This document shows, piece by piece, positions 1,041 to 46,573 of a stretch of 46,594 nucleotides of DNA (position 1 is its first letter; each line of letters starts with the position of its first letter). A program made the translations under genes and the position numbers. The stretch comes from a virus. Location: positions 1-46,594 of the IMG/VR virus record IMGVR_UViG_3300046796_000189; one strand, given 5' to 3'. The notes beneath the pieces were generated by a model. That model made no database searches. It was not told the DNA's origin and saw only the letters and a list, made by a program, of their open reading frames with translations.

Positions 1041-1718
1041 ATGGCGAAGCGTCCGCACAAGGCGACGCCCGCCTCGAAGGCGCGCACCTTCACTTCCGAG
1101 CAGCGCACGGAAGACTCGAACGCGTTCACCGAGCCCGTGCCGTTCATCCCGAGCGGCATAGTCATCCGCACGGAGGGCCAGCGCATGTTCCTTCACGTGA
1201 CTGGCTCGTACGCTGCGATCGCTCAAGAGATCCAGTGCCGCACTATCAGTTCGATCCACGACTGGAAGACTGGGAAGCGACAGCCGAACGCGGACGCGCG
1301 CGCCAAGATGCACTACGCGTTCGGCATCCCGATCGAAGCATGGGACATCGAGCCGAAAGGCACGAAGCTTCCGGACGCGCTGCCCGTCACTGCGCCGCGC
1401 CGACTGTCCACGCTCGATCACTGCATCACGCTACTCGACACGATCTCGAAGCAGCGCGTGCACCCAGCGCTGACCAACGCGGAGCGAACGAAGCTCGCGC
1501 TTGCGGAGGCGCAGATCCTCGCACTGCGCGCGCGCCTCGAGCAGTCCGCCGAGCTCGCGGAAGATCGCTACATCCGAGAGCACCCCGGCTGGATCAAGTT
1601 GCGCGATGCGCTCACGCGCGCGCTGCTTCCGTACCCGATCGCCGCCAAGGCTGTGCTCGATGCGCTCGCGAAGCTGAACATGGGCGACGAGGCGCCGACC
1701 AATGGTGCAGCTGGTTGA
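1041..1718 (+). CDS. HTH DNA-binding protein in the terminase operon
   Basis: This 225-residue protein has a Cro/C1-like helix-turn-helix at about residues 55-95 (SYAAIAQEIQCRTISSIHDW, then KTGKRQPNADAR and IPIEAWDIEP). A charged helical region rich in ERTKLALAEAQ-type sequence follows, perhaps for oligomerisation. The HTH pattern W-x-x-G-[KN]-[KR]-x-P is shared with the short protein at 3342-3572 on the other side of the large terminase. The gene overlaps the start of the large terminase by 17 nt. It could be a second terminase small-subunit component or a regulator of late genes. I cannot assign a function beyond DNA binding. Confidence 0.6.
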   Translation: MAKRPHKATPASKARTFTSEQRTEDSNAFTEPVPFIPSGIVIRTEGQRMFLHVTGSYAAIAQEIQCRTISSIHDWKTGKRQPNADARAKMHYAFGIPIEAWDIEPKGTKLPDALPVTAPRRLSTLDHCITLLDTISKQRVHPALTNAERTKLALAEAQILALRARLEQSAELAEDRYIREHPGWIKLRDALTRALLPYPIAAKAVLDALAKLNMGDEAPTNGAAG

Positions 1719-3354
1719 TCGCTCGCTCTCGAAGCCGCTCGCGCGCGGGGCTCAGCTGCGCGCGCCGCGCGTGTCGTTCAGCGAAGCGTTCTTCGAGCAC
1801 TTCGCGTTTGAGTTCTCGATGTCGACCCGGATCCGTTTTCCGAATCCGGCGTTTCAACGCGACCCCGTAGACTTCTTCCGGAAGATCCTCGGCGTAGAGC
1901 CGTGGCACCGCCAAGTGGAAGTACTCGAAGCGGTGCGCGATCACTCTCGCGTTGCGATCTGCTCGGGCCACAAGGTCTCGAAGTCGCACAGCGCAGCGGG
2001 GCTCGCGCTCTGGTTCTTCTGCTCGTTCGAAGACGCGCGTGTCGTGATGACGTCGACCACTTCGCGACAGGTCGACCAGATCCTCTGGCGCGAACTGCGC
2101 ATGCTGCGCTCGCGCTCTGGGCGTTGCATCGCGTGCAAGCTCGAAGACCCGGACGGGCTCATCATCCGCAAGCCGTGTCCGCACTCGACCATCATCGAAG
2201 GCGAGCAGGGCGAGCTTGCGCGAACCGGACTGAAGACGCCCGACTTTCGCGAAGTGCTGGGCTTCACGGCGCGCGAAGCAGAGGCCGTGTCCGGCGTGAG
2301 CGGCCGTCATCTTCTCTACATCGTCGATGAAGCTAGCGGCGTCGCTGAAGAGATCTTTCAAGCGATCGAAGGCAACCGCGCAGGCGGCGCGAAGATCGTG
2401 ATGTTCAGCAACGGCACGAAGAACGAAGGCGAGTTCTACGAAGCCTTCTACGGCAAAGCGCACCTGTACAAGACGCTCCGCATATCGTCGGATGAAACGC
2501 CGAACGCAGTGAGCGGAGAGCTGCTTATCCCCGGGCTCGCCACGCGTGAGTGGGTCGAAGAAAAAAAACTCGAATGGGGCGAGACGTCCGCGCTCTATCG
2601 CGTTCGCGTGAAGGGCGAGCACGCGCTGCACGAAGAAGGCCGGATATTCACCATCCACGCGATCGGCCAAGCGGAGGCACGCTGGGCTGACACTGCAGAG
2701 TCGGGCCGCTTGTACATCGGGCTTGACCCCGCCGGCGAGAGCGGCACCGGCGATGAGACTGTGCTCGTGGCGCGTCGCGGGCTGAAGATGCTCGAACTGA
2801 TCGCGCAGCGCGGCCTCAACGATGAAGCACACAAGGCGCTCCTGCTTCACGTCATCAAGCGCTTGCGACTTCCGCGCGAGACTCCGGTCGTTGTGATCGA
2901 TCGCGAAGGCTCGATCGGAGCGCAGCTCTCCGGAGCGCTCAATGCGCACGTCGCGCTGCACCCGAACGACTTCGAGCTCGTGTCGCTGCGCGCAAGCGAC
3001 GGCGCGATCCGCCAGCCGCAAGTCTACGACCGCGTCCGCGATGAGCTCGCCGCGAACCTCGAGATCTGGTTCCGCGACGGCGGCGCCATCCTCGAAGACG
3101 CGAAGCTCGCGCGTGAGCTGCACGTACTCGAGTGGCTCTTCACGCAGCGCGGCCGCGTCAAGCTCATCGCGAAGGACAAGCTCCGCAAGATCCTCGGCCG
3201 CTCGCCCGATCGCTACGATGCGCTTGCGATGTCGTGTTGGGAGCCGCTCTCGCTCGCCGACGTGCCTGCGAGCATGCAAGCGGACACTGAAGACTCCGAC
3301 CGCATGGAGCACGTGCTCGACCCCTACGAAGGGATGAAGGTATGGGAAAGCTGA
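1702..3354 (+). CDS. Terminase large subunit (packaging ATPase/nuclease)
   Basis: This is the DNA-packaging motor that translocates DNA into the prohead and cuts it. The ATPase half carries a degenerate Walker A-like segment (CSGHKVSKSHSAA, near residues 86-98) and a clear Walker B motif (LLYIVDEAS, near 204-212). A coupling-type segment, IVMFSNGT, comes later. The nuclease half begins with YIGLDPAGESGTGDETVL at about residue 337, which supplies the first RNase H-fold acidic residue, followed by VVVIDREG. The length of 550 residues is typical. The start overlaps the previous gene by 17 nt. A later ATG at 1819 is possible, but both lack a good ribosome binding site. The protein resembles terminases of Mu-like and related siphoviral or myoviral heads. 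Confidence 0.93.
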   Translation: MVQLVDRSLSKPLARGAQLRAPRVSFSEAFFEHFAFEFSMSTRIRFPNPAFQRDPVDFFRKILGVEPWHRQVEVLEAVRDHSRVAICSGHKVSKSHSAAGLALWFFCSFEDARVVMTSTTSRQVDQILWRELRMLRSRSGRCIACKLEDPDGLIIRKPCPHSTIIEGEQGELARTGLKTPDFREVLGFTAREAEAVSGVSGRHLLYIVDEASGVAEEIFQAIEGNRAGGAKIVMFSNGTKNEGEFYEAFYGKAHLYKTLRISSDETPNAVSGELLIPGLATREWVEEKKLEWGETSALYRVRVKGEHALHEEGRIFTIHAIGQAEARWADTAESGRLYIGLDPAGESGTGDETVLVARRGLKMLELIAQRGLNDEAHKALLLHVIKRLRLPRETPVVVIDREGSIGAQLSGALNAHVALHPNDFELVSLRASDGAIRQPQVYDRVRDELAANLEIWFRDGGAILEDAKLARELHVLEWLFTQRGRVKLIAKDKLRKILGRSPDRYDALAMSCWEPLSLADVPASMQADTEDSDRMEHVLDPYEGMKVWES

Positions 3355-3613: not shown

Positions 3614-5308
3614 GTGGCGAGCATCACTCAGCGGATAAGTCAGTCTGCGCGCGCTGCCCTCATGGGCATCTCGACCTACGCGCCCGACGACAATCCGACT
3701 TACGCCTACGACATCGATAGCGACAACGTTCGCCAGATGCGCGAAGCGCTGGGCGGCCAGTTGGTGCCCGCCACGATCTCGAAGATCCGTTGGTACATGA
3801 GCGATCTCGAGGTCGCGGAGCGCCTCGCGGATTCAGGTGACTTGAGTCAAGCGGGTCGCTTGATGCTCGCAGCGCGCAAGGATGGCGTGCTCTCCGGCGT
3901 TCTCTCCACGCGCACAAGCGGCCTCGTTCGGCTGCCCAAACACTTCCGCGGCGACCCGAAGATCGTCGGCGAGCTCGAGGCAGGTCACGAGTCTGTGCGC
4001 TCGCGCTTCGATGAGATGTGCCCGCCGAGCGAGCTCGCTCTCATGGCCGCGGACGGCATCTTGTGCGGCGTCGCAGTGGGCGAGCTGCTCCCAGTGCAGG
4101 GCCGCGATTACCCCGTGCTCGTACGTCTCGACCCGCAGTATCTGCAATACGTTTGGAATGAGAACCGCTTCTACTATCGCAGCGCTGTTGGCCGTCTTCC
4201 TGTCACACCTGGAGATGGTCGCTGGGTGCTTCACGTTCCCGGAGGTCGTGTCGCTCCGTGGCAGCACGCGCTGTGGCGTTGCATCGGCCGCGCGTACATC
4301 CGCAAGGAACACGCGAATCTCCAAAAGGACAATTGGGAGTCGAAGCTAGCGAACCCCGCGCGCGTCGCGACAGCACCGCAAGGCGCAGCGGAGGCGCAGA
4401 AACAAAGCTTCTTCCAGCAAGTGATGGCGTGGGGCATCAACTCTGTTTTCGGGATGACGCCCGGATACAGCGTGCAGCTGCTCGAAAGCAACGGGCGCGG
4501 CTTCGACTCGTTCAACAAGACGATCGCGCAACAGAACGAAGAGTTCATCATCGCGATCGCCGGCCAGGTCGTGACCACGACGGGCGGCACTGGCTTCTCG
4601 AATCAGGACATCCACAAAGCGATCCGCGCGGACCTGATCAAAGACACTGCGGACGGCCTCGCGTACACGGTCAACACGCAGATCATCCCTGTCTACATCG
4701 CGCTGCAGTACGGCGAAGACGCCATCGAGACGATGAGCGCCGCGATGGAATGGGACGTTACTCCGCCGCAAGACCTCAACGCGCAAGCGAACAGTGTTCT
4801 CACGCTCGCGAACGCGATGATCCAGATGCAGCAAGCGCTCGCCACTGCGGGCTTCGCGCTCGATGTCAGCACGATGGCGGAGCGCTACGGCGTGCCGCTC
4901 GAAGGCGACTACGACGGCGACGGCGTACCCGACGCGGGCACCGAGAAGCAGCCGACCAAGCTGCGCGTCATCGAAGGCGGCAAGTCCACGTCGACCAGCG
5001 ACACGGGCACGGTGGGCGACGTCGCCCCGACTGACAACGCAATCGCATCCGACAAAGCAGCGCAGGACACCGCACTCAACGGAGCGCAGATCGCGTCGCT
5101 ACTTGAGATCATCCAAGCCGTCGCGGATGGGCTCATCCCGCGCGATGCAGGCATCGCAGTAATCAAACGCGCGTTCCTGGTCGATGAAGCTGGCGCGGAA
5201 GAGCTCATGGGCAGCGTGGGCCAGGGCTTCGTGCCCGCGTCCGCAACTCCGCCCGCCGCGCCCGCAGCACCTCCGCAGCCACCAGCTGCACCCGCGGAGG
5301 CAGCATGA
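3614..5308 (+). CDS. Portal protein, Mu gp29-like (DUF935 type)
   Basis: The portal forms the dodecameric ring at one head vertex through which DNA enters and leaves, and to which the neck is attached. The 564-residue protein shows the features of the Mu-like DUF935 family: an N-terminal VPATISKIRWYMSDLEVAER region, VLSGVLSTRTSGLVRL, then the membrane-proximal-looking core with HVPGGRVAPWQHALWR, and the late segment QNEEFIIAIAGQVVTTTGG, which is the family's conserved tunnel-loop region. The C-terminal tail is Ala/Pro-rich low complexity (PPAAPAAPPQPPAAP). The start is a GTG at 3614 without an obvious Shine-Dalgarno sequence. The end overlaps the protease gene by 4 nt (ATGA). Confidence 0.88.
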   Translation: MASITQRISQSARAALMGISTYAPDDNPTYAYDIDSDNVRQMREALGGQLVPATISKIRWYMSDLEVAERLADSGDLSQAGRLMLAARKDGVLSGVLSTRTSGLVRLPKHFRGDPKIVGELEAGHESVRSRFDEMCPPSELALMAADGILCGVAVGELLPVQGRDYPVLVRLDPQYLQYVWNENRFYYRSAVGRLPVTPGDGRWVLHVPGGRVAPWQHALWRCIGRAYIRKEHANLQKDNWESKLANPARVATAPQGAAEAQKQSFFQQVMAWGINSVFGMTPGYSVQLLESNGRGFDSFNKTIAQQNEEFIIAIAGQVVTTTGGTGFSNQDIHKAIRADLIKDTADGLAYTVNTQIIPVYIALQYGEDAIETMSAAMEWDVTPPQDLNAQANSVLTLANAMIQMQQALATAGFALDVSTMAERYGVPLEGDYDGDGVPDAGTEKQPTKLRVIEGGKSTSTSDTGTVGDVAPTDNAIASDKAAQDTALNGAQIASLLEIIQAVADGLIPRDAGIAVIKRAFLVDEAGAEELMGSVGQGFVPASATPPAAPAAPPQPPAAPAEAA

Positions 5309-25593: not shown

Positions 25594-26250
25594 TCAGAGC
25601 TTGATGTGATGGACGCTCACGCCCACGCGACCGCGCCCGAAGATCAATTCCGCTGCAGCGCGGATCTGCTCTTCCAGGTTGTGCTTCGCGTTGTGCCCCT
25701 TGACGCGCGGCCGGCCTTCGCGCATGCGCGCCAGCAACCCGCGCGCGTCATCGAGCGTTTTCGGATCGCCGGTCGGCTTGTCCTTGTCTTGCAGCGCAGG
25801 ATCGTACTTCGTAATCACGGCGCACATCGCGATCGCCGCGCGGTCCGCGGCGTTCCAATTGTCCACCGCGTATTGAAGCAGGACATCTTCGGCATCCGGC
25901 GGAAGCGGCAGCGCTGCAAGCCCGTTGGTCAGGCGACTGCCGTAGTCACCCGCTTCATCGTAATTCTTGATGAGCGAATCGCTGCACTGCCGAAGCAGCG
26001 TGAGCAGCTTCTCACCCGTCGCGACCGGCGACGGACGGCACTGCGCGCACTCGCACAGCCCGTCGCTCGGCGTCGCAGCGTGATCGCTGTCGCCGTCATC
26101 ATCGTCATCGTCATCATCTTCGCGCGGCTCCTTCGGTCCAGCTGCCCGCGTTCGCGCTCGCGCCTCGGAGGCAGCTCGCGCCTCCGCGTCCGCTTGTCGC
26201 GTCATCGAGCAGATCAGGCAGTCGCACAGCGCCCTTTGTTCTTCACTCAT
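25594..26250 (-). CDS. Acidic-tract protein with N-terminal cysteines, unknown
   Basis: The 218-residue protein starts MSEEQRALCDCLICSMTRQ, contains a run of eight Asp residues (PREDDDDDDDDGD), and then GLCECAQCRPSP, so it may bind metal at two Cys pairs. The C-terminal half is helical with AVDNWNAADRAAIAMCAVIT and AKHNLEEQIRAAAELIFG. A GGAGG Shine-Dalgarno sequence supports the start at 26250 rather than an upstream one. No function is apparent. The gene overlaps the previous one by 8 nt. Confidence 0.55.
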   Translation of the reverse strand: MSEEQRALCDCLICSMTRQADAEARAASEARARTRAAGPKEPREDDDDDDDDGDSDHAATPSDGLCECAQCRPSPVATGEKLLTLLRQCSDSLIKNYDEAGDYGSRLTNGLAALPLPPDAEDVLLQYAVDNWNAADRAAIAMCAVITKYDPALQDKDKPTGDPKTLDDARGLLARMREGRPRVKGHNAKHNLEEQIRAAAELIFGRGRVGVSVHHIKL

Positions 26251-27073: not shown

Positions 27074-27670
27074 TTATATCCCTCCGTGTGCTGGCTCACT
27101 GGATGCCAGGAAAACGTCCGACGCTGAGGCGTTGCGCGCGAGATCGATCAGCCAGCGCGCGAACTCCGGAGGCGTGAGCGCTGCGATCCTCTTGTCTGCA
27201 GACGGCAATCGCGGCCCGCGCGGCCCGCTCGTTACGCGATGTGTTGCTACTCCGCCGCTGCGCATCCCGAGCCACACAAGCTCATCCGGCACGCCGACGA
27301 TGTAGAGCCACGTCGCCTTGTTGCAACAGTGACCCCAGCTGACCTGCTGGACTGCGAACGTGCGGCCGCCGTGCGCGTCCGCGAACTCACCCGGCAGCGG
27401 CAGGCGGCAGTGCCAGAAGAGCTTGCTGTAAGCGGGATGTTCGAGCACGCCGCCGAAGTGCTGCACGCTGCGCACAGCGGCCGGCCCGCACGTCGGATCT
27501 TGCTTCGTGCACAAGTGGCGCATCTTCGACCACGGTCCGCACGGCGGGTGCGCGACGACCGGGAACGGGCCTTCGTAGCGACGCGCATCGCGTTCGAGCG
27601 GCCAGCAGTCCACGTCGCGCATGCTCGTGTAAGCCCCGCGCGGGTCCACGTACAGAGCAGCGACGGTCAC
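27074..27670 (-). CDS. PPC-motif methyltransferase-like protein
   Basis: The 198-residue protein carries VVAHPPCGPWSKMRHLC with a candidate catalytic Cys near residue 44, like the PPC motif of cytosine C5 methyltransferases, and GGVLEHPAYSKLF, similar to the ENV-type motif region. N-terminal ALYVDPRGAY and WSxxCNKATWLYIVGV-type segments are typical of a widespread but uncharacterised phage family. It is much shorter than a full C5 methyltransferase and has no clear target-recognition domain or SAM-binding loop, so it may act only as part of a complex. It is coupled to the gene above by a GTGA overlap. Confidence 0.62.
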   Translation of the reverse strand: MTVAALYVDPRGAYTSMRDVDCWPLERDARRYEGPFPVVAHPPCGPWSKMRHLCTKQDPTCGPAAVRSVQHFGGVLEHPAYSKLFWHCRLPLPGEFADAHGGRTFAVQQVSWGHCCNKATWLYIVGVPDELVWLGMRSGGVATHRVTSGPRGPRLPSADKRIAALTPPEFARWLIDLARNASASDVFLASSEPAHGGI

Positions 27671-29118
27671 TGCTTTCGCAGAACGAGCAGATCCTCCGAG
27701 ATGCCCGCGGAGTTCATCTGGCCCTTGCTCGATCCGCCCACGTCAACCTTGCTGCGCGTTTCGATGAGCGCGCCCGCACCCATCGCGATACGAATCGCAT
27801 CGTCTGCGATCGCGTGCTTCCCAGCATCGGACACGTTGAGAACGAACGCGCAGCCGGGCTTGAGCGCCTCGAGCGTCTTACACACGAGTGGCTCTAAGAA
27901 GCCGTCGCGCCATGCGTCATAGGTCTTGTACCGATTGAAGCTCTGCTCGCTGTCTTGTGAGTACTGTTCAACGTCGAAGTACGGCGGCGAGGTGAACGCG
28001 AAGTCAAACGACGCTGGCTCAAGCGTCACGTCTTCGAACGCGCTGTGCCGCATGTACGCATTGCGGATGTTGAGGTCTCCGATCATCCGCTCGAAGCTCG
28101 CGAGCGTCTGCGCGGATGCGTCGAAGCCGACATAGTTTCCCGCCTGCAGCGAGCACAGCCAGCCGAGCATGCGCCCGCCCCAGCCAGCGCACGGGTCGAG
28201 CACGCGCGCGTGTTCAACGGAATATTGCCGGTAGATGTCGCGTGCGACGTCGATGGGAAACTGCCGCGCGCACTGCCGCCCGCGATAGATGAGCAGCACG
28301 GAAAGCACTGCAGCGCGCAGCGGCATCTGGCCTTGCTCCGCTGCGACGCGCACTGCACCCGCGATCGCTTCTTCGCTCGCAAGCGACTCGTTCGGAGTCA
28401 TCGGAGACTTCCCCGCTTTCACATCGTAGCGATGTGAGAACCACCGATCGGTCAGCGAGATACGCGGACGTCCGCCAGCAGCGCAGCGATTGAGCTCGAC
28501 CATCACATCCGCAACGCTCAATGCGAAGTCGCTGTAGCGCTTCCCGACCAAGCATCCCGCTTGCACGCGCGCAACCGTGTCGATGTCGAAGACGTCGAAG
28601 CGCGCTACATCCTCGCTCGCGGCTTCTTCGCCGAGCTCGCCCACGTCTTCGCTCTCGAACAGGGTGCCGAACTTGTTGAGGTCCGCGTCGCTCCATCCTG
28701 CGAGGTCAAGCTCTTCTAGTTTGAACTCGGCAAGCACCGTTCCGAGCGACTCCGACCACTGCGTGAGCTCCGCGATCCGGTTGTCCGCAAGCGCGAGCAG
28801 ATGCGCTTCGCGCTTCGAGATGTCGAGATAGCGCACGGGCACGCGCTGCAGCTCCAACACTTGCGCCGCTTTGAAGCGCGCGTGTCCAGCGATGATCTCG
28901 CCGTCCGCACGTCGCGCAAGGATCGGAGCGCCCCACCCGAAGCGCTTGATGGATCGGATGACGCGCTCGACCGTCTCGCCGTCATTGTCGCGGGGGTTCT
29001 CCTTCCAGAGCTTGAGTCGCGAGAGCTCGACCCACTCCGCGGCGGGCTGCTCGGTTTTAGGAACTGCTCGCAAGCGAGTGCGCGCAGTCTTGACTTTCTT
29101 GGCGGATGCTTTGGGCAT
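27667..29118 (-). CDS. ParB-domain/DNA methyltransferase fusion
   Basis: The 483-residue protein has an N-terminal ParB/Srx-like domain (residues about 28-125: WVELSRLKLWKENPRDNDGE, IIAGHARFKAAQVL, LALADNRIAEL) fused to a C-terminal methyltransferase domain with a SAM-binding motif (DPCAGWGGRMLG near residue 307) and catalytic TSPPYFD (near residue 375). TSPPY points to an N6-adenine or N4-cytosine enzyme of the exocyclic-amino class. Phage ParB-methyltransferase fusions are usually found with modification genes. The catalytic order (motif I before IV) and the start are clear. The target site is unknown. Confidence 0.85.
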   Translation of the reverse strand: MPKASAKKVKTARTRLRAVPKTEQPAAEWVELSRLKLWKENPRDNDGETVERVIRSIKRFGWGAPILARRADGEIIAGHARFKAAQVLELQRVPVRYLDISKREAHLLALADNRIAELTQWSESLGTVLAEFKLEELDLAGWSDADLNKFGTLFESEDVGELGEEAASEDVARFDVFDIDTVARVQAGCLVGKRYSDFALSVADVMVELNRCAAGGRPRISLTDRWFSHRYDVKAGKSPMTPNESLASEEAIAGAVRVAAEQGQMPLRAAVLSVLLIYRGRQCARQFPIDVARDIYRQYSVEHARVLDPCAGWGGRMLGWLCSLQAGNYVGFDASAQTLASFERMIGDLNIRNAYMRHSAFEDVTLEPASFDFAFTSPPYFDVEQYSQDSEQSFNRYKTYDAWRDGFLEPLVCKTLEALKPGCAFVLNVSDAGKHAIADDAIRIAMGAGALIETRSKVDVGGSSKGQMNSAGISEDLLVLRKQ

Positions 29119-29599: not shown

Positions 29600-29980
29600 A
29601 TGACAACGAAGCACGCGCTCCTACGGATGATCGAAGTACACAACGCGACCGACACGACCTACCCGTCGTTCAGCGTCACCACGCACAAGCTTCCGGGTCG
29701 GGACTGTCTCGCGCTCGAAGGAAGCTTCGGCGAGATCATGAGCGCGCTCTGCACTGCGCTCATGAACGCGTCCGCGATGAGCGCTCACGATCGCGCGGAC
29801 ATCAAGCGCGCGATGCACTCCGCGCGCATGCACAATATCGGGACACGCACAAGCGAGATGTACTTCACAGACGTCACGTTCAGCGTGGACGACCTGCGCG
29901 AACACGAGCACGCGAGCGCTTGCGGAGTCTGTGACGGCTGTCTGTTCGGAAAGCAGTGCGAGCTCATCTGCCACTCATGA
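29600..29980 (+). CDS. Small protein with C-terminal Cys cluster, upstream of integrase
   Basis: The 126-residue protein has a beta/alpha layout (TTYPSFSVTTHKLPGRDCLA, then EIMSALCTALMNASAMSAH) and ends CGVCDGCLFGKQCELIC, a probable metal-binding group. A GAAGGAAG Shine-Dalgarno sequence lies 10 nt upstream of the ATG. It is the first gene of the integrase transcription unit, which places it where a recombination directionality factor might be. Nothing in the sequence proves such a role. Confidence 0.55.
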   Translation: MTTKHALLRMIEVHNATDTTYPSFSVTTHKLPGRDCLALEGSFGEIMSALCTALMNASAMSAHDRADIKRAMHSARMHNIGTRTSEMYFTDVTFSVDDLREHEHASACGVCDGCLFGKQCELICHS

Positions 29981-30012
29981 AGTCAACGAACGCGAAAGGA
30001 AAGCACACGACC

Positions 30013-31347
30013 ATGGACGGATCCTTGCAGACACTCGACACGAAGAAACCCAAGCGCTCCGCCAAGCGCTTCGAGCGTGGACGCTCTCCGCACCCCGGAG
30101 TGGTCGTCATCCCGCCGAAGCTGGACGCGAAGACGCATCGACCGCTTGCGGGACATCGCTATCGCTTGCGCATCGACGGCGACTTCGCGGCCGCTCACGC
30201 GAAGGACTGGCGCGGAGCAATCCCCGATGAGTACGGACGCAGCGCGGAAGCGCGGGAAGAGTACGCGCAGCTCGCTTTCGACACGATGCGCTCACGCATG
30301 GGACTGCGGCCCGGACAAGCGCTCGTTCCCGGTCATCTGTTCCTCAGCGAAGCGATCGCGGAGTACGTCGCGAGCAAGCATCGCAACTCTGACAACACGC
30401 AAGACAACGTGCGCCGGAACCTCGCGCGCTTCGAAGCGTGGGCGAAGCAGAGCTCGCTCGTTTACGTCGAAGACTTGATCCCTGCGACGCTCGGGAAGTA
30501 TCGGACGCACCTCGACCAAGCGCCGAACCAAACGAGCGATGGGAAGTGCAGAGCGTCCACGGTCAACCAGTACATGAAGGATGTGCGCGCGTTTCTCTAC
30601 GCGCTGTCGGACGCGGGCAAGCTCATGAACATCACGCGCGATCAAGCGCGCGCTGCGCTCAAGCGCTTTGACATTCCAGACGGCGAAGACTTCGACGCTC
30701 GCGCGCTCTCCGTTCCCGAGATCACCAAGCTGCTCGAAGCAGCGCTCAAGCTGGACGCGGAACCGCTGCGCGCGCGCTCCGTTCAAATGGCGCCCTGGGT
30801 CGTGGTCGGGATCCTAGGAGGGATGCGCCGATCGGAGCAGCGCTCGCTGCTCGTGAGCGACGTCAACCTCGGGGCGGAGTTCCACGGAGAAACGCGCCAC
30901 TTCATCGCGCTGCGCATCTCGAAGACCGGCCCGCGCGCGATCGAGCTCGAAGGATACAGCGTGCTCCTACGCGAGCTGCTCGCGCGCATGTGCGAGGGTC
31001 GCGCTGCTTCCGATGCTCTGTTTCCCATCGGCCAGAAGGGTCTCGGGTACGCATGGAAGCGCTTACGCAAGCTCGGATGCCCCGCGGACGTGTCCATCAA
31101 AACGCTGCGTTCAACCTGCGCGACGTTTCAAGACTCGCTTGACGTCGGAGTGAGCGCGCGTGCTGCACGTCTCGGGCACAGCGTGCGCGTTGCGGAGCAG
31201 CACTACTTCGACCGCGGGATCCTCATCAAGCGTAAGCGCGCTGCGACGCTGGAAGAAGCGATGCAGTGCGCGGAGCTCATCAAGACAGTCATCACACGCT
31301 ACGAATGGCGCCCGATGCGCAACGATAACGAAGGAGTCTCGAAGTGA
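30013..31347 (+). CDS. int: Tyrosine recombinase (phage integrase)
   Basis: The 444-residue protein integrates and excises the phage genome. The N-terminal part has an arm-binding-like basic region, followed by a core-binding domain (residues about 115-210: LSEAIAEYVASKHRNSDNT...). The catalytic domain shows GILGGMRRSEQRSLL (first Arg near 272), RISKTGPRAI (beta-hairpin Lys), the box II region IKTLRSTCATFQDSL, GHSVRVAEQHYFD with the final His and nucleophile Tyr (near 398). In box II the usual His two residues before LR is Lys. I chose the ATG at 30013 after AAAGGAAAG. An ATG at 29977 overlapping the previous stop is an alternative. It supports a temperate life cycle. Confidence 0.9.
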   Translation: MDGSLQTLDTKKPKRSAKRFERGRSPHPGVVVIPPKLDAKTHRPLAGHRYRLRIDGDFAAAHAKDWRGAIPDEYGRSAEAREEYAQLAFDTMRSRMGLRPGQALVPGHLFLSEAIAEYVASKHRNSDNTQDNVRRNLARFEAWAKQSSLVYVEDLIPATLGKYRTHLDQAPNQTSDGKCRASTVNQYMKDVRAFLYALSDAGKLMNITRDQARAALKRFDIPDGEDFDARALSVPEITKLLEAALKLDAEPLRARSVQMAPWVVVGILGGMRRSEQRSLLVSDVNLGAEFHGETRHFIALRISKTGPRAIELEGYSVLLRELLARMCEGRAASDALFPIGQKGLGYAWKRLRKLGCPADVSIKTLRSTCATFQDSLDVGVSARAARLGHSVRVAEQHYFDRGILIKRKRAATLEEAMQCAELIKTVITRYEWRPMRNDNEGVSK

Positions 31348-40319: not shown

Positions 40320-42923
40320 ATGCGCGAAGAAGAGCTCATCCCATGGGATACGCAGGATCCCACCCAGCCATGGCAGCCCCCGCGCTCGCTTGAGCGCCAC
40401 CCGACCGACCAGCCCGATCCATTGTTCGATGACCTGACTGTGACGTCCGCGCTCGAGGTCGCGCTGCTCAACGAAGCGCGCATCACGATCGTTCGGCACC
40501 CGAAGTACATCGCGCGCATGCTCGGGTGGAAGGGCTTCAGCGGACAAGCGGCGATCGTCTTCCCGATGTTCGAGCCCGGAGCGCTGCACCCGTACGGCTT
40601 CCGCTTCAAGCCGTCGAAGCCGCGCCAGCGGAAGAACGGCGACAAGGTCAAGTACGAGCAGCCGAAGGACACGGGCATCTTCGTTTACTTCACGCCGCGC
40701 GCGTCGCTCGATGGCGGCTACGCGGACACTGCGCGCACTCTGGTGTGGGTCGAGGGCGAGAAGAAAGCGCTCGCCGCCGAGCAGTGCGGCCTGGTTCCGA
40801 TCGGCCTGACTGGCGTCAACAACTGGCACGACAAGTCCGCCAAGGATGCGCACGACGGCACGAAGCTGCACGCGCTCATCGTGAAGCACTGCGCGATCGC
40901 GGGCCGCAGGCACGTCATCTGCTTCGACGCCGACGCGCGCACGAAGGAGCAAGTGATGGCCGCGGCGCAGAAGCTCGCCGGCGCGCTGCTCGCAGCGGGC
41001 GCGCTCGAGGTGCTCTTCACGTGCCCGCCAACGCTCGAACACAAAGGCCTTGATGACTATCTCGCCGCGCACGGCGCGGACGCTGTGCGCGAGCTCATCG
41101 CGACCGCGGGCCCGATCGAAGCGACCGAGCCGAAGCAGCCCACGCAGCGACTGCGCGACTGCTTCCCGCACGCGGCGCTGAGCCCCGCGCTGCTCGTACC
41201 GGACGGCTACAGCTTCCGGAAGAACACGCTGTGCAAGGTCGAGATGGTCAAGGGCGAGGACGGCTGGGCGGAAGAAGAAGTGCCGTACTTCCCCAGCCCG
41301 ATCTTCATCACGCGCCGCTTCATGGACCTCGAGACACACGAGCAGTCCACGGAGGTGACGTTCAGAGACCCGGACGGCACGTGGCGCAGCTGCATCCTGT
41401 CACGTGACAAGACCGGCAACCGCACGCTCTCGGATGCGCTGCGCTTGCAGGGTGCCCGCGTGACCATGGGCAACAACACCAAGCTCACCGAGTGGCTTGA
41501 TGAGTTCGAAGACTTCAACACGAAGGCGCTGCCGATCGAGTGGCTCGCAGAGCGCGCGGGCTGGTTCGAGCTCAAGAGCGAGTGGCACTTCGTGTGCGGA
41601 AGCGATCTGCGCTTCGAGAGTTGCGCAGACGTTATCCACCGCTCCGAAGTGCATGAGCGCGCGTTCGCTGCGCTGGGCATGCGCGAGGGCGCGAGCGTCG
41701 CAGCGCACACGGCTGCGCTCAAGCGCGCATGGGAAGCGAGCGATGACTGCGCGCTCATGATCGCGGGCGCGCTCGCGGCGCCGCTGCTCAAGATCCTCGG
41801 CGTCGCAAACTTCGCGCTGCATCTGTGCGGCGACACATCGCGCGGGAAGACCTCGATGCTGCGCATCGCTGCGAGCATCTTCGGCGATCCGCGCAGCCAG
41901 CAGTGGGTCGCTCCGTGGCTCGGCACGATCACAGCGACCGAGCTGCGCGCGCAGTTCTATTGCGATCTGCCGCTCTGCTTCGATGAGAGCGGGACGGTTG
42001 ATCCCGAGTTCATGGCGCGCGCTGTGTACATGCTCGTGAACGGCGAGGGCCGTCCGCGCGGAACCAAAGAGCTGCACATGCGCCCGACAGCGCACTGGCG
42101 CACGGTCGTCCTAAGCACGGGCGAGGTCGAGCTCGCGGGCGAAGACGCGATGGGCGGCCAGCAGGTGCGCGTGATAAGCGTCCCGATCACGGGCTTCGGC
42201 GCGCTCGATGCTGCGGGCGTCGATGATCTGCGCGACGCATGCGCAGACAACGCGGGCGCAGTCGGCGAGCTCTGGCTGCGCGCGCTCGCTGGCTGCGATG
42301 AAGAAGACCGCGACGATCGCCGCGCGCAGTATCGAACGCTGCTCGCAGAGCTGCGCGTTATCGCGGGCGGTAACTCCACGCTCGCGCGAACTGCGATGAG
42401 CTTCGCAGTGATGGCGCTCGCAGCTGAGGGCGCGCAGTGCGAGCTCGGCTTCGGGTCGAGTCAGACCATCATCGAGATCTTCCGGAAGCGCTGCGCGAGC
42501 TCTGGCGGCGTGCGGCCTATGCATGAGCGGGTCGTCGAAGCGCTGACCGAGTGGGTCACGAGCAACCCGCGCACGTTCCCGATCACGACCAAGCATCTGA
42601 ACGGGACGCGCAGCGCGGCCGTGCAGGATGCGCCGAAGATAAACGGGTTCCGCCTCGAAGACAGCGGCGACGTGGCCTTCGTGGGCGACGCGCTACGCGG
42701 AGAGCTTGAGCGACGTCGCATCCCGTGGACCCACGCGGTGCAGTCGCAGCTCATCGAGCTCGGGCGACTTCGGCCGGAAGGCCGACACTTTGCGATGCGC
42801 GTTCGCGTCAACGGAGAGCGTCCGCGTCTCTATGTGTTCCAACTTGCGGAGGGCGGGACCACTGGGCTCTGGCTGGGTCCCGACAGTGGTCCCAGCGAAT
42901 CCAAGGCAAAAACATACAGTTAG
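40320..42923 (+). CDS. Primase-helicase (TOPRIM-like plus DUF927-type helicase)
   Basis: The 867-residue protein combines a primase part and a helicase part. The first third has a DUF3854/TOPRIM-like region: VWVEGEKKALAAEQCGLVPI (acidic Glu near residue 144), VICFDADART (near 201-209) and GLDDYLAAHGADAVRELI. The centre and C-terminus resemble the DUF927 superfamily 3-like ATPase with Walker A CGDTSRGKTSMLR near residue 504 and Walker B-like LPLCFDESGTV near 549. It should prime and unwind DNA at the origin. The putative iteron origin lies directly downstream, beginning within its last 70 bp. It starts 14 nt after the coiled-coil gene. Confidence 0.85.
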   Translation: MREEELIPWDTQDPTQPWQPPRSLERHPTDQPDPLFDDLTVTSALEVALLNEARITIVRHPKYIARMLGWKGFSGQAAIVFPMFEPGALHPYGFRFKPSKPRQRKNGDKVKYEQPKDTGIFVYFTPRASLDGGYADTARTLVWVEGEKKALAAEQCGLVPIGLTGVNNWHDKSAKDAHDGTKLHALIVKHCAIAGRRHVICFDADARTKEQVMAAAQKLAGALLAAGALEVLFTCPPTLEHKGLDDYLAAHGADAVRELIATAGPIEATEPKQPTQRLRDCFPHAALSPALLVPDGYSFRKNTLCKVEMVKGEDGWAEEEVPYFPSPIFITRRFMDLETHEQSTEVTFRDPDGTWRSCILSRDKTGNRTLSDALRLQGARVTMGNNTKLTEWLDEFEDFNTKALPIEWLAERAGWFELKSEWHFVCGSDLRFESCADVIHRSEVHERAFAALGMREGASVAAHTAALKRAWEASDDCALMIAGALAAPLLKILGVANFALHLCGDTSRGKTSMLRIAASIFGDPRSQQWVAPWLGTITATELRAQFYCDLPLCFDESGTVDPEFMARAVYMLVNGEGRPRGTKELHMRPTAHWRTVVLSTGEVELAGEDAMGGQQVRVISVPITGFGALDAAGVDDLRDACADNAGAVGELWLRALAGCDEEDRDDRRAQYRTLLAELRVIAGGNSTLARTAMSFAVMALAAEGAQCELGFGSSQTIIEIFRKRCASSGGVRPMHERVVEALTEWVTSNPRTFPITTKHLNGTRSAAVQDAPKINGFRLEDSGDVAFVGDALRGELERRRIPWTHAVQSQLIELGRLRPEGRHFAMRVRVNGERPRLYVFQLAEGGTTGLWLGPDSGPSESKAKTYS

Positions 42924-42929
42924 CTTCGC

Positions 42930-42956
42930 TGGGACCACTGGGACCACTGGGACCAC
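42930..42956 (+). repeat. Iteron cluster 1 (three tandem TGGGACCAC)
   Basis: Three perfect 9-bp direct repeats occur without spacing. Weaker partial copies occur just upstream inside the end of the primase-helicase gene (GGGACCAC at 42855-42862 and an inverted copy at 42885-42894). Confidence 0.85.
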
Positions 42957-43072
42957 CTGGATCGCGTCTCGTATGGGAATGAGTGATGAAGAATTGGGAG
43001 CATAGCCAACGCAGGGGGTGTGTGAATGGGAGGCACACCCAAACTGCGCGCGCGTACGCGAGGGCAAAACAA

Positions 43073-43099
43073 GTGGTCCCAGTGGTCCCAGTGGTCCCA
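43073..43099 (-). repeat. Iteron cluster 2 (three tandem copies, opposite strand)
   Basis: GTGGTCCCA occurs three times in tandem, the exact reverse complement of cluster 1. It faces the CT tract and AT-rich element. Confidence 0.85.
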
Positions 43100-43179
43100 C
43101 CCCCCTGCGGCTCTCTCTCTCTCTCTCTCTAACTATATGAATAAACCTAACTATATCTATCTAACAGATCCGCGCTGGC

Positions 43180-43209
43180 TGGGACCCAGCTGGGACCACC
43201 TGGGACCAC
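43180..43209 (+). repeat. Iteron cluster 3 (two copies and one variant)
   Basis: TGGGACCCA (43180-43188, one base different), TGGGACCAC (43191-43199) and TGGGACCAC (43201-43209) follow the AT-rich element in the same orientation as cluster 1. Confidence 0.82.
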
Positions 43210-43222
43210 TTACGAGGTCCAG

Positions 43223-43780
43223 ATGAGGCGGACGCGATGGAAGTCGCCCGCGCAGACTCTCCTGCCGGAGCTCGCGCCCGCCGTGACTCCACCCGTCGCG
43301 GCGGATGACGGGGCGGAACGTGAGCGCATGAGCTCGCGTTCGCTCGACCCGCTAGAGCACTTCGCGCCCATCGAGCTCGCCGTCTTCGAGGTGAGCAGCT
43401 TCCCCGCTCTCCTGCTGCCCGAGCTGCCCGCGGCGTGGCTCATCCTTGCGGAGACTCTTCCGGCCGTCCACGGGGCTGCAGAGCGCATCCGCTTCGCGTT
43501 CGCGAGCGACGCGGAGCACTATCGCGCCGCACGCGCGCTGAGCCTGCCGACGTTCAACGCGCTTGAGTGGACCACCTTCGTGCTCGCTGCAGAGCTCGAT
43601 CGTGTGAGCTACCCCACCACTGCGCGCTGGCTCGCGCGCAAAGCGGCTGAGCCGGGTCTGCTCTTCACGCCCGAGCGTTGCATCGGACTGGGTCCCGACC
43701 AGCCGGACCGTCTCCACCTCAACGTGGGTCAGGTCATGACCTCGATCGGTGCACGTCTAGTCAAAGCGGAGTGCGCATGA
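43223..43780 (+). CDS. Unknown early protein after the putative origin
   Basis: The 185-residue protein starts with an ATG at 43223 preceded by GAGGTC. The region from residue 50 has Leu/Pro-rich helices (VSSFPALLLPELPAAWLILAE) and an Asp/Glu-rich centre, with a C-terminal GPDQPDRLHLNVGQVMTSIGARL. No known motif is visible. It immediately follows the iteron array and overlaps the RuvC-like resolvase gene by 4 nt, so it may be an origin- or replication-associated protein, by position only. Confidence 0.52.
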   Translation: MRRTRWKSPAQTLLPELAPAVTPPVAADDGAERERMSSRSLDPLEHFAPIELAVFEVSSFPALLLPELPAAWLILAETLPAVHGAAERIRFAFASDAEHYRAARALSLPTFNALEWTTFVLAAELDRVSYPTTARWLARKAAEPGLLFTPERCIGLGPDQPDRLHLNVGQVMTSIGARLVKAECA

Positions 43781-45046: not shown

Positions 45047-45237
45047 TCTGGCAGCCCGGCACGCTGCGCCTCAACTTCGAGCTGCTCACGCGCCCCAAGC
45101 GCGTCTACGTCGCGATGCTCGTTCTGCGCGGACGCATCGTGGAGATCACCGAAGCGAAGCCGTGGTGGCGCGCTGTCGCGACGCGCAGTGACGTCGGCGG
45201 GTGGATCCCTCCCGAGCGTCAGACCGACGACAGGTGA
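45043..45237 (+). CDS. Small unknown protein
   Basis: The 64-residue protein has beta-rich segments (YVAMLVLRGRIVEITEAKPW) and Trp residues. It overlaps the previous gene by 4 nt (ATGA). No motif is recognised. A GTG at 45234 overlapping its stop could start the next gene, but a better site lies at 45294. Confidence 0.48.
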   Translation: MIWQPGTLRLNFELLTRPKRVYVAMLVLRGRIVEITEAKPWWRAVATRSDVGGWIPPERQTDDR

Positions 45238-45293
45238 CCCGAGCTCGGCGCGTCTGCCGCTGGGGCATGCGTCCGCCGATGGGAGAACTCACG

Positions 45294-45674
45294 ATGCCAC
45301 GCGACAGCATCACGCAAGCGTTTGGGAACGGCTGGGCGGACCGCTACAGCTTCGGTCTGCTCCGCTGCGAGCAACTCTACGCGGACCCTCTGCGCGGCAG
45401 TCGCGCAGCGTGGCGCGTCGGCTGGGAGCTCGCGCACGTGCTCTGCTTCATCATCGGGCGGCCGTTGCGCAACTCGCCCCGACGCAGCCACGGGCAGCAT
45501 CCGCTTCCGCGCGTGCTGCCCACTGCGGACGAGGTGAACGCGTACATGGACGGGCGCGGGTCCGGCCCTCCATACGATCCGCTCGCGCGCGGGCGACGTC
45601 GCAATCGCATCATCGCGAGCGTGTTGCTTCTGCTCGCGCTCTTCTGCGCGCGATGGGTCGTGAGGCACCCATGA
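45294..45674 (+). CDS. Small membrane-anchored protein next to PLP enzyme
   Basis: The 126-residue protein starts at an ATG at 45294 with GGGAGAA 7 nt upstream. The body has Trp/Arg-rich helices (QAFGNGWADRYSFGLLRCEQ, WRVGWELAHVLCFI) and the C-terminus is a transmembrane segment (RIIASVLLLLALFCARWVV). It overlaps the PLP enzyme gene by 4 nt (ATGA). An earlier GTG at 45234 is possible. Function unknown. Confidence 0.5.
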   Translation: MPRDSITQAFGNGWADRYSFGLLRCEQLYADPLRGSRAAWRVGWELAHVLCFIIGRPLRNSPRRSHGQHPLPRVLPTADEVNAYMDGRGSGPPYDPLARGRRRNRIIASVLLLLALFCARWVVRHP

Positions 45675-46573
45675 CCGTCTGCACGTCGGTCGGCGCGCTC
45701 ACGCCGTGCGAGCAGCACGACGGCACTTGGTACAAGCGCGATGATCTCTTTATCCCATTCGATGACGTGCCGCTCTCGGGCGGCAAGGTGCGTCAAGCGA
45801 TGGAACTCCTGCGCCCCAGGGTGGGGCAGATTCGCAGTCGCTTCGGCGGCGTCGTGCTGACAGCGACGGGCGTGCACTCGCCGCAAGGGCTCATCATCGC
45901 GCGAGTCGCGCATGAGTACGGACTGCGCACCGTCATCTTCGTGGGCGCGACGACCGAAGCGCGCGCGCTGCGCCACCAGATGCTCTCCACTGCGACGCGC
46001 TTCGGCGCATCGCTCGATTGCAGCGCGCGAGTCGCGTATGAGAGCGCGCTCACGAAGTCGATCCAGCGCTGGCGTGCTGCGCACGACCATCACGGCTTCC
46101 ACGTCAAGTTCGGCATCAATCTGCGCGACGCGCCCGGAGCGATCATCGGCTCGACGGTGGGCCAGGCGCGTAACGTGCCCGCTGAGGTGACTACGGTCGT
46201 CATCCCAGTGGGCGCGGGTATAACCGCAGCTGGGATACTGCTCGGCCTTAGGAAGCACTGTCCGCAGGTGCGGCGCATCGTCCTAGTGCAGATCGCTGGA
46301 TATGACCGCAAGGCGGAGATCGATGCAGTCGCGCAGGGCCTGCCGTACGAGTATCACGCGATCAGTCGCTATCCGTATGGGCATGAGCTGCGACGCAGCG
46401 TGACATCATCCTTCACGCTGGATCCCATCTACGAAGCGAAGGCGCACCAGTACATGTGCGAGGTGCTGCGCCTCAGCGGGCCGAGCGTTCTCTACTGGGT
46501 GATCGGGAACTCCGCGCCAGTGCGCGCGAGCGCTGCGCGTCATGCGGGGGTTGTACCCAAGGCCCCCGGGTGA
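45671..46573 (+). CDS. PLP-dependent fold-type II enzyme (ACC deaminase/D-cysteine desulfhydrase-like)
   Basis: The 300-residue protein has the layout of the tryptophan synthase beta-like PLP superfamily, closest in style to 1-aminocyclopropane-1-carboxylate deaminase and D-cysteine desulfhydrase. YKRDDLFIPF and PLSGGKVRQAMELL place the PLP lysine near residue 39; ACC deaminase-type enzymes usually have GGNKxRK here. GVHSPQGLIIARVAHEYGL resembles the 'SNHa.a.A..a...G' substrate-loop region. VIPVGAGITAAGILLGLR is the phosphate-binding glycine region, and DPIYEAKAHQYM and YWVIGN follow in the usual order. It is complete and intact. The substrate is unknown; amino-acid metabolism or supply of a DNA modification is possible. 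Confidence 0.75.
   Translation: MTVCTSVGALTPCEQHDGTWYKRDDLFIPFDDVPLSGGKVRQAMELLRPRVGQIRSRFGGVVLTATGVHSPQGLIIARVAHEYGLRTVIFVGATTEARALRHQMLSTATRFGASLDCSARVAYESALTKSIQRWRAAHDHHGFHVKFGINLRDAPGAIIGSTVGQARNVPAEVTTVVIPVGAGITAAGILLGLRKHCPQVRRIVLVQIAGYDRKAEIDAVAQGLPYEYHAISRYPYGHELRRSVTSSFTLDPIYEAKAHQYMCEVLRLSGPSVLYWVIGNSAPVRASAARHAGVVPKAPG

Follow-up and report, generated by a model that had tools for sequence, protein, structure and literature searches.

A probable phage replication origin, probably read by the phage's primase-helicase, with repeat words that switch between close relatives

An array of nine-base repeats (iterons) directly downstream of a phage primase-helicase gene is very probably the phage origin of replication (ori), with the upstream primase-helicase (Rep) as its likely reader and self-loading initiator. 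The module is of a known Rep-ori kind; its unusual part is that the iteron word switches in a concerted way and that changes in Rep cluster at its predicted reading head. Among close relatives the word varies in step with the predicted recognition helix, which would give each phage a private replicon specificity.

The window (the whole 46,594-base record analysed here) encodes proteins matching terminase (1702-3354), portal, head protease, major head protein, tail sheath, tape measure, baseplate, and integrase (29956-31347). From these structural and integrase genes it looks like a temperate, contractile-tailed phage; with virion genes of its own, it is not a phage-inducible chromosomal island (satellite). 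ORF 45188-46573 has a weak match to pyridoxal-phosphate enzymes (Pfam PALP, E=4e-9; PHROG threonine dehydratase, E=4e-14), unusual in a phage. Three relatives were found among IMG/VR contigs (L021, L022, and L023), with Rep proteins 80-82% identical to that of the window; group comparisons below refer to these four genomes. L021 (G001) carries a 127-base direct terminal repeat, and its map and that of L022 (G002) are circularly permuted relative to the window. Scans of genome contigs found no relative, and cultured phages gave no near match.

The iteron array and its AT-rich element

The features of the module are as follows:

40320-42923, plus strand: rep, encoding a primase-helicase and putative initiator of 867 amino acids (DUF3854, DUF927, and a C-terminal candidate DNA-reading domain)
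42519-42857, plus strand: Rep C-terminal domain, residues 734-846, a predicted helix-turn-helix with beta wing
42732-42803, plus strand: Rep residues 805-828, comprising a predicted recognition helix (805-813) and the first part of the wing, hypervariable between genomes with different words
42854-42862, plus strand: imperfect iteron CGGGACCAC, one mismatch, inside rep; position kept in all four genomes
42886-42894, minus strand: perfect iteron TGGGACCAC, inside rep
42930-42956, plus strand: direct cluster, three tandem iterons with a 9-bp period
43073-43099, minus strand: inverted cluster, three tandem iterons with a 9-bp period
43111-43130, plus strand: (CT)10 tract
43120-43169, no strand: AT-rich element, putative unwinding site, the lowest-GC 50-mer of the genome
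43180-43209, plus strand: right cluster, with degenerate TGGGACCCA at 43180 and perfect iterons at 43191 and 43201

Perfect copies of TGGGACCAC number nine, all within 42886-43209 and none elsewhere in the record; shuffled sequences give an expectation of 0.16 and a maximum of three over 100 shuffles. They start at 42886 (minus strand); 42930, 42939, and 42948 (plus); 43073, 43082, and 43091 (minus); and 43191 and 43201 (plus). A preliminary description of this DNA had reported eight perfect repeats: the array is real, and the count was low. With one-mismatch and degenerate copies included, the array comprises about 11 or 12 nine-base sites. It begins in the last 70 bases of rep and extends 286 bases past the gene end, bearing out the earlier placement right after the primase-helicase gene. 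The described order of three clusters (direct, inverted, direct) likewise holds, with the addition of a divergent pair, 42854 (plus) and 42886 (minus), within the 3' end of rep.

The (CT)10 tract is present as described, as is the AT-rich stretch with its CTAACTATAT repeats, at 43129 and 43147. The 50-mer at 43120 has 28% GC, the single lowest value in a record of 64% GC, and the AT-rich element is flanked by the left clusters (42854-43099) and the right cluster (43180-43209). GC skew near the site shows no more than a weak local change, from +0.08 (42-43 kb) to -0.08 (43-44 kb). Exact DnaA boxes (TTATNCACA) are missing from 42601-43500, where one match with one mismatch occurs, and a DnaA-dependent origin is thus not indicated. 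Scans for Rfam families, tRNAs, and terminators gave no matches.

Two further elements lie between the direct and inverted clusters, both conserved in all four genomes. The spacer at 43004-43041 contains TAGCCAACGCAGG...GTGTGA...CACAC, and a similar TAGCCAATGCAGG...GTGTGA element appears again near 4035 in L022. An alternating GC tract, GCGCGCGCGTACGCG, at 43045-43066 adjoins the inverted cluster.

Instead of an origin, the repeats could be operators, or an autoregulatory site, to which a transcription regulator binds. The arrays do sit between two co-directional genes, with two minus-strand promoter-like matches against 0.1 expected. However, no regulator gene adjoins them, and they enter the coding sequence of rep at positions that are conserved. 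Moreover, 10-13 sites spread over 300 bp, in either orientation and surrounding the genome's most AT-rich stretch, immediately behind an initiator-type helicase, match the published layout of origins (PMC6092414). We consider the operator explanation very unlikely.

The primase-helicase and its relatives

Rep contains a DUF3854 domain (residues 140-255; Pfam E=4e-18) and a DUF927 AAA+ helicase domain (residues 300-588; Pfam E=1e-36), and matches the PHROG family DNA primase/helicase (E=2e-64). The Pfam scan returned these two domains only, without P4-type primase or helicase domains; the protein is therefore not of the P4 alpha/crr type. Among solved structures it is closest to a Rep protein of a staphylococcal pathogenicity island (8tch, E=5e-18), followed by the helicase Cch (5dgk, E=4e-9). 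A profile of residues 294-842 matches seven other DUF927 helicases (E=3e-41), and the C-terminal domain by itself aligns with the C-termini of other DUF927 phage helicases (hhalign 92.9%, E=3.7e-7), so by profile comparison these domains are homologous.

Within the C-terminal domain, the segment 805-828 reads PWTxAVxxQLxxLGRL, then RxRxNGxxxRxY, in all four proteins. The variable positions 805, 808, 809, 812, and 813 fall on one helix face, and a beta hairpin follows. Two AlphaFold (AF2) models of the domain, of low confidence (mean pLDDT 45 and 49) and used only for the order of secondary structure, place a helix at 805-813, with a helix before it and strands after it. Foldseek searches with these low-confidence models gave no meaningful match. 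A second variable block, residues 322-406 (window 41283-41537), falls into two allele classes, one shared by the window and L021 and the other by L022 and L023. These classes do not track the iteron word; such crosswise sharing looks like recombination.

Similar arrays accompany other helicases of this kind. Among seven further DUF927 helicase genes from phage records, five (those of THSA-485A, FP_Epona, Klebsiella P12620-1, PT1028, and phiRg507T2_3) are followed within 400 bases by 9-11 iterons in mixed orientation, each array with a word of its own and an AT-rich stretch among the iterons; the arrays of Jekyll and AC844P2 are weak. Unrelated DUF927 replicons with this layout include one staphylococcal island-like element. 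The preliminary description held the inverted arrangement to be less common; in fact inverted clusters are usual for such origins, with mixed orientation in all nine DUF927 origins examined. Its reading of the region as an origin is well supported by the comparison, since the layout, the placement behind a DUF927 helicase, and the AT-rich element recur both in the close relatives and in unrelated DUF927 replicons.

VapE-type primase-helicases of L020, L011, and phage PS3 also carry such arrays, whereas the VapE genes of phages Haddon and LPPA36 are not followed by any that could be found. Inverted arrays with the TGGGACC core of the window lie at L020 10178-10480, L011 4540-4930, and L017 6545-6870 (L017 is the same region as L011, reversed), behind unrelated VapE-type genes; the common core may reflect convergence or a shared origin of the motif. 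These arrays came from an exact 18-mer scan of viral contigs; its matches in L005, L007, L013, L014, and L015 look, by eye, like repetitive collagen-like coding sequence rather than origins.

These features are consistent with the following model for initiation. Copies of the predicted C-terminal winged helix-turn-helix of Rep would bind the roughly 12 nine-base iterons on either side of the AT-rich element, and two oppositely oriented helicase rings would assemble as a result. The AT-rich stretch would then melt, the DUF927 AAA+ helicase would load itself on each strand, and the DUF3854 (Toprim-like) domain would prime.

Word switches and clustered change in Rep

Each of the four genomes uses a different iteron word, changed in all copies: TGGGACCAC in the window, TGAGACCAC in L022, TGGGACGGG in L021, and TGGGACTGG in L023. 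The differences fall at repeat positions 3 and 7-9. Each word occurs perfectly only in its own ori region (the L021 array reaches into the next gene), and the other three words are absent from each of the four records, that of L022 being only 15 kb. A search for the repeat clusters in related phages, as proposed earlier, thus recovers the layout in three relatives and a different word in each. Counted back from the end of the last sense codon, the first two iterons lie at 67 and 35 bases in every one of the four genomes, and the stretch from CTAACTATAT to CTAACAGAT in the AT-rich core is identical in the window, L021, and L023.

The pair L021 and L023 is the most instructive. Position 7 is changed in 10 of 10 matched iterons, four of them inverted, and hence on both strands: nine changes are G to T, and one is G to A plus a core change. 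At the other iteron positions, only 2 of 80 are changed (p=1e-11). Taken over all their positions, iterons show no clear excess of divergence over spacers (12/90 versus 22/309, p=0.055); the signal is the concentration of 10 of the 12 changes at a single position, rather than iteron divergence overall. The spacers and AT core are nearly unchanged, which argues that the block was not replaced wholesale.

Fixed-word repeats occur in the pac and att regions of some phages, and a packaging site, a site-specific recombination site, or a repeat without function might therefore be entertained. The terminase and integrase genes sit elsewhere, however, and unless something reads the word, one would not expect dispersed and partly inverted copies to change in concert while the spacers between them are preserved. 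Such explanations seem scarcely plausible.

Change in Rep is also concentrated. Between L021 and L023, there are 3 differences in the 331 residues of segment 474-804, 9 in the 24 residues of segment 805-828, and none in segment 829-844. The enrichment in 805-828 over 474-804 has a Fisher p=1e-9 with segment boundaries that were picked after the data had been seen; a scan permutation over 474-844 gives p=5e-5 for such density. Because the codons for residues 805-828 all precede the first iteron, the repeats themselves do not account for this clustering.

Comparison of orthologous ORFs genome-wide between L021 and L023 found dense 24-residue patches of change in other products as well: the portal protein, the ParB-like/methyltransferase protein, the 15083 product, and the small ORF at 26243. 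The Rep patch is not unique, then; it is meaningful because it lies on the predicted recognition helix adjoining the array. (In the portal protein, window 3614-5308, 10 of the 14 differences fall in one 24-residue stretch near residue 430.)

The ParB-like/DNA methyltransferase gene (27667-29118, minus strand) invites a further explanation, in which the repeats are a partition (centromere) or methylation-related site for its product. That protein has a ParB-like N-terminal region, and 8 of 24 residues differ between L021 and L023 in a patch from residue 325, with the protein otherwise nearly identical there. However, this patch lies outside the ParB-like part and is possibly a changed target recognition region. 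The best matches of the protein are ParB-methyltransferase fusions rather than a partition pair, about 14 kb separate the gene from the array, and no ParA was found among the subset of ORFs scanned. We regard this explanation as highly improbable.

An origin might instead be read by a separate small protein, with the helicase recruited later, as in the lambda O or plasmid Rep systems. The candidates are the products of the genes at 43223 and 39835, which lie on either side of the module and are present in each of the four genomes as conserved genes; the preliminary description had proposed the same two as initiators (the second listed as 39919). Neither contains a recognisable DNA-binding domain by Pfam and PHROG searches. 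When L021 is compared with L023, the conserved part of the 39835 product hardly differs, and the roughly six changes in the 43223 product are scattered; Rep, by contrast, has a dense cluster of change at the predicted recognition helix of its candidate DNA-reading domain. This argues against the earlier proposal, and a separate reader appears quite unlikely.

With Rep as the probable reader, the four genomes bear on an old puzzle: how an initiator and at least ten copies of its binding site change specificity together while replication is kept throughout. Four phages about 80% alike in their initiator, with four words, amount to an experiment by nature in the re-pairing of a replication protein with its start site. 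In L021 and L023, one base per copy and few other changes in the helicase half define a small set of residues and bases to swap. Moreover, a set of poorly annotated phage primase-helicases is now linked to recognisable origins.

We tentatively suggest that this origin code turns over fast, with all copies switching by at least one base along with a few recognition-helix residues, and that the turnover may come from escape from rivals that read the old word, giving a readable specificity code for DUF927 initiators. The rivals may be origin-directed nucleases, satellites, or related phages that superinfect. Vibrio satellites have variants of origin and initiator that function only as cognate pairs, and origin changes permit escape from an origin-directed nuclease (PMC8263062), a precedent for a selective force of this kind.

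Comparison with known Rep-ori modules

The closest parallels are the SaPIbov1-type Rep-ori modules and phage-inducible chromosomal islands (PICIs). In SaPIs, Rep uses its C-terminal domain to recognise the iterons that immediately follow the rep gene (PMC7581432), and E. coli PICI origins always have two iteron sets around an AT-rich region (PMC6092414). The window shares the DUF927 AAA+ initiator-type helicase, a probable ori directly 3' of the rep gene, iteron sets around an AT-rich stretch, and iteron words private to each replicon. Unlike the islands, it is a full temperate phage with structural genes, its Rep has a DUF3854 primase domain fused in front, and sequence identity to the island helicases is only distant.

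The SCCmec helicases Cch and Cch2 are similar in that a self-loading helicase is proposed to bind downstream iterons; Cch (5dgk) is a DUF927 relative, and the C-terminal domain of Cch2 binds its own repeats (PMC7581432). Cch2, however, is of a different helicase family, and its iterons number just three, each of 5 nt.

Thermoanaerobacterium phage THSA-485A and Faecalibacterium phage FP_Epona have the homologous C-terminal domain and about ten iterons in mixed orientation, with words (GGTAACCGA and TAGGTGAAA, respectively) that differ from that of the window. The alpha protein of satellite P4 itself binds its origin; its primase and helicase belong to families different from those of the window Rep. 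With its ori/crr, P4 alpha resembles the window in that a primase is fused to the initiating helicase and a cognate ori goes with the fusion (PMC7145576, PMC6092414).

Finally, the RepA-ori modules of PLE, the Vibrio cholerae satellites, are likewise cognate origin-initiator pairs whose variants escape an origin-directed nuclease (PMC8263062). PLE differs in having an unrelated RepA_N initiator, and in varying through whole-module swaps or restructuring rather than through the single-base change in every copy seen in the window group.
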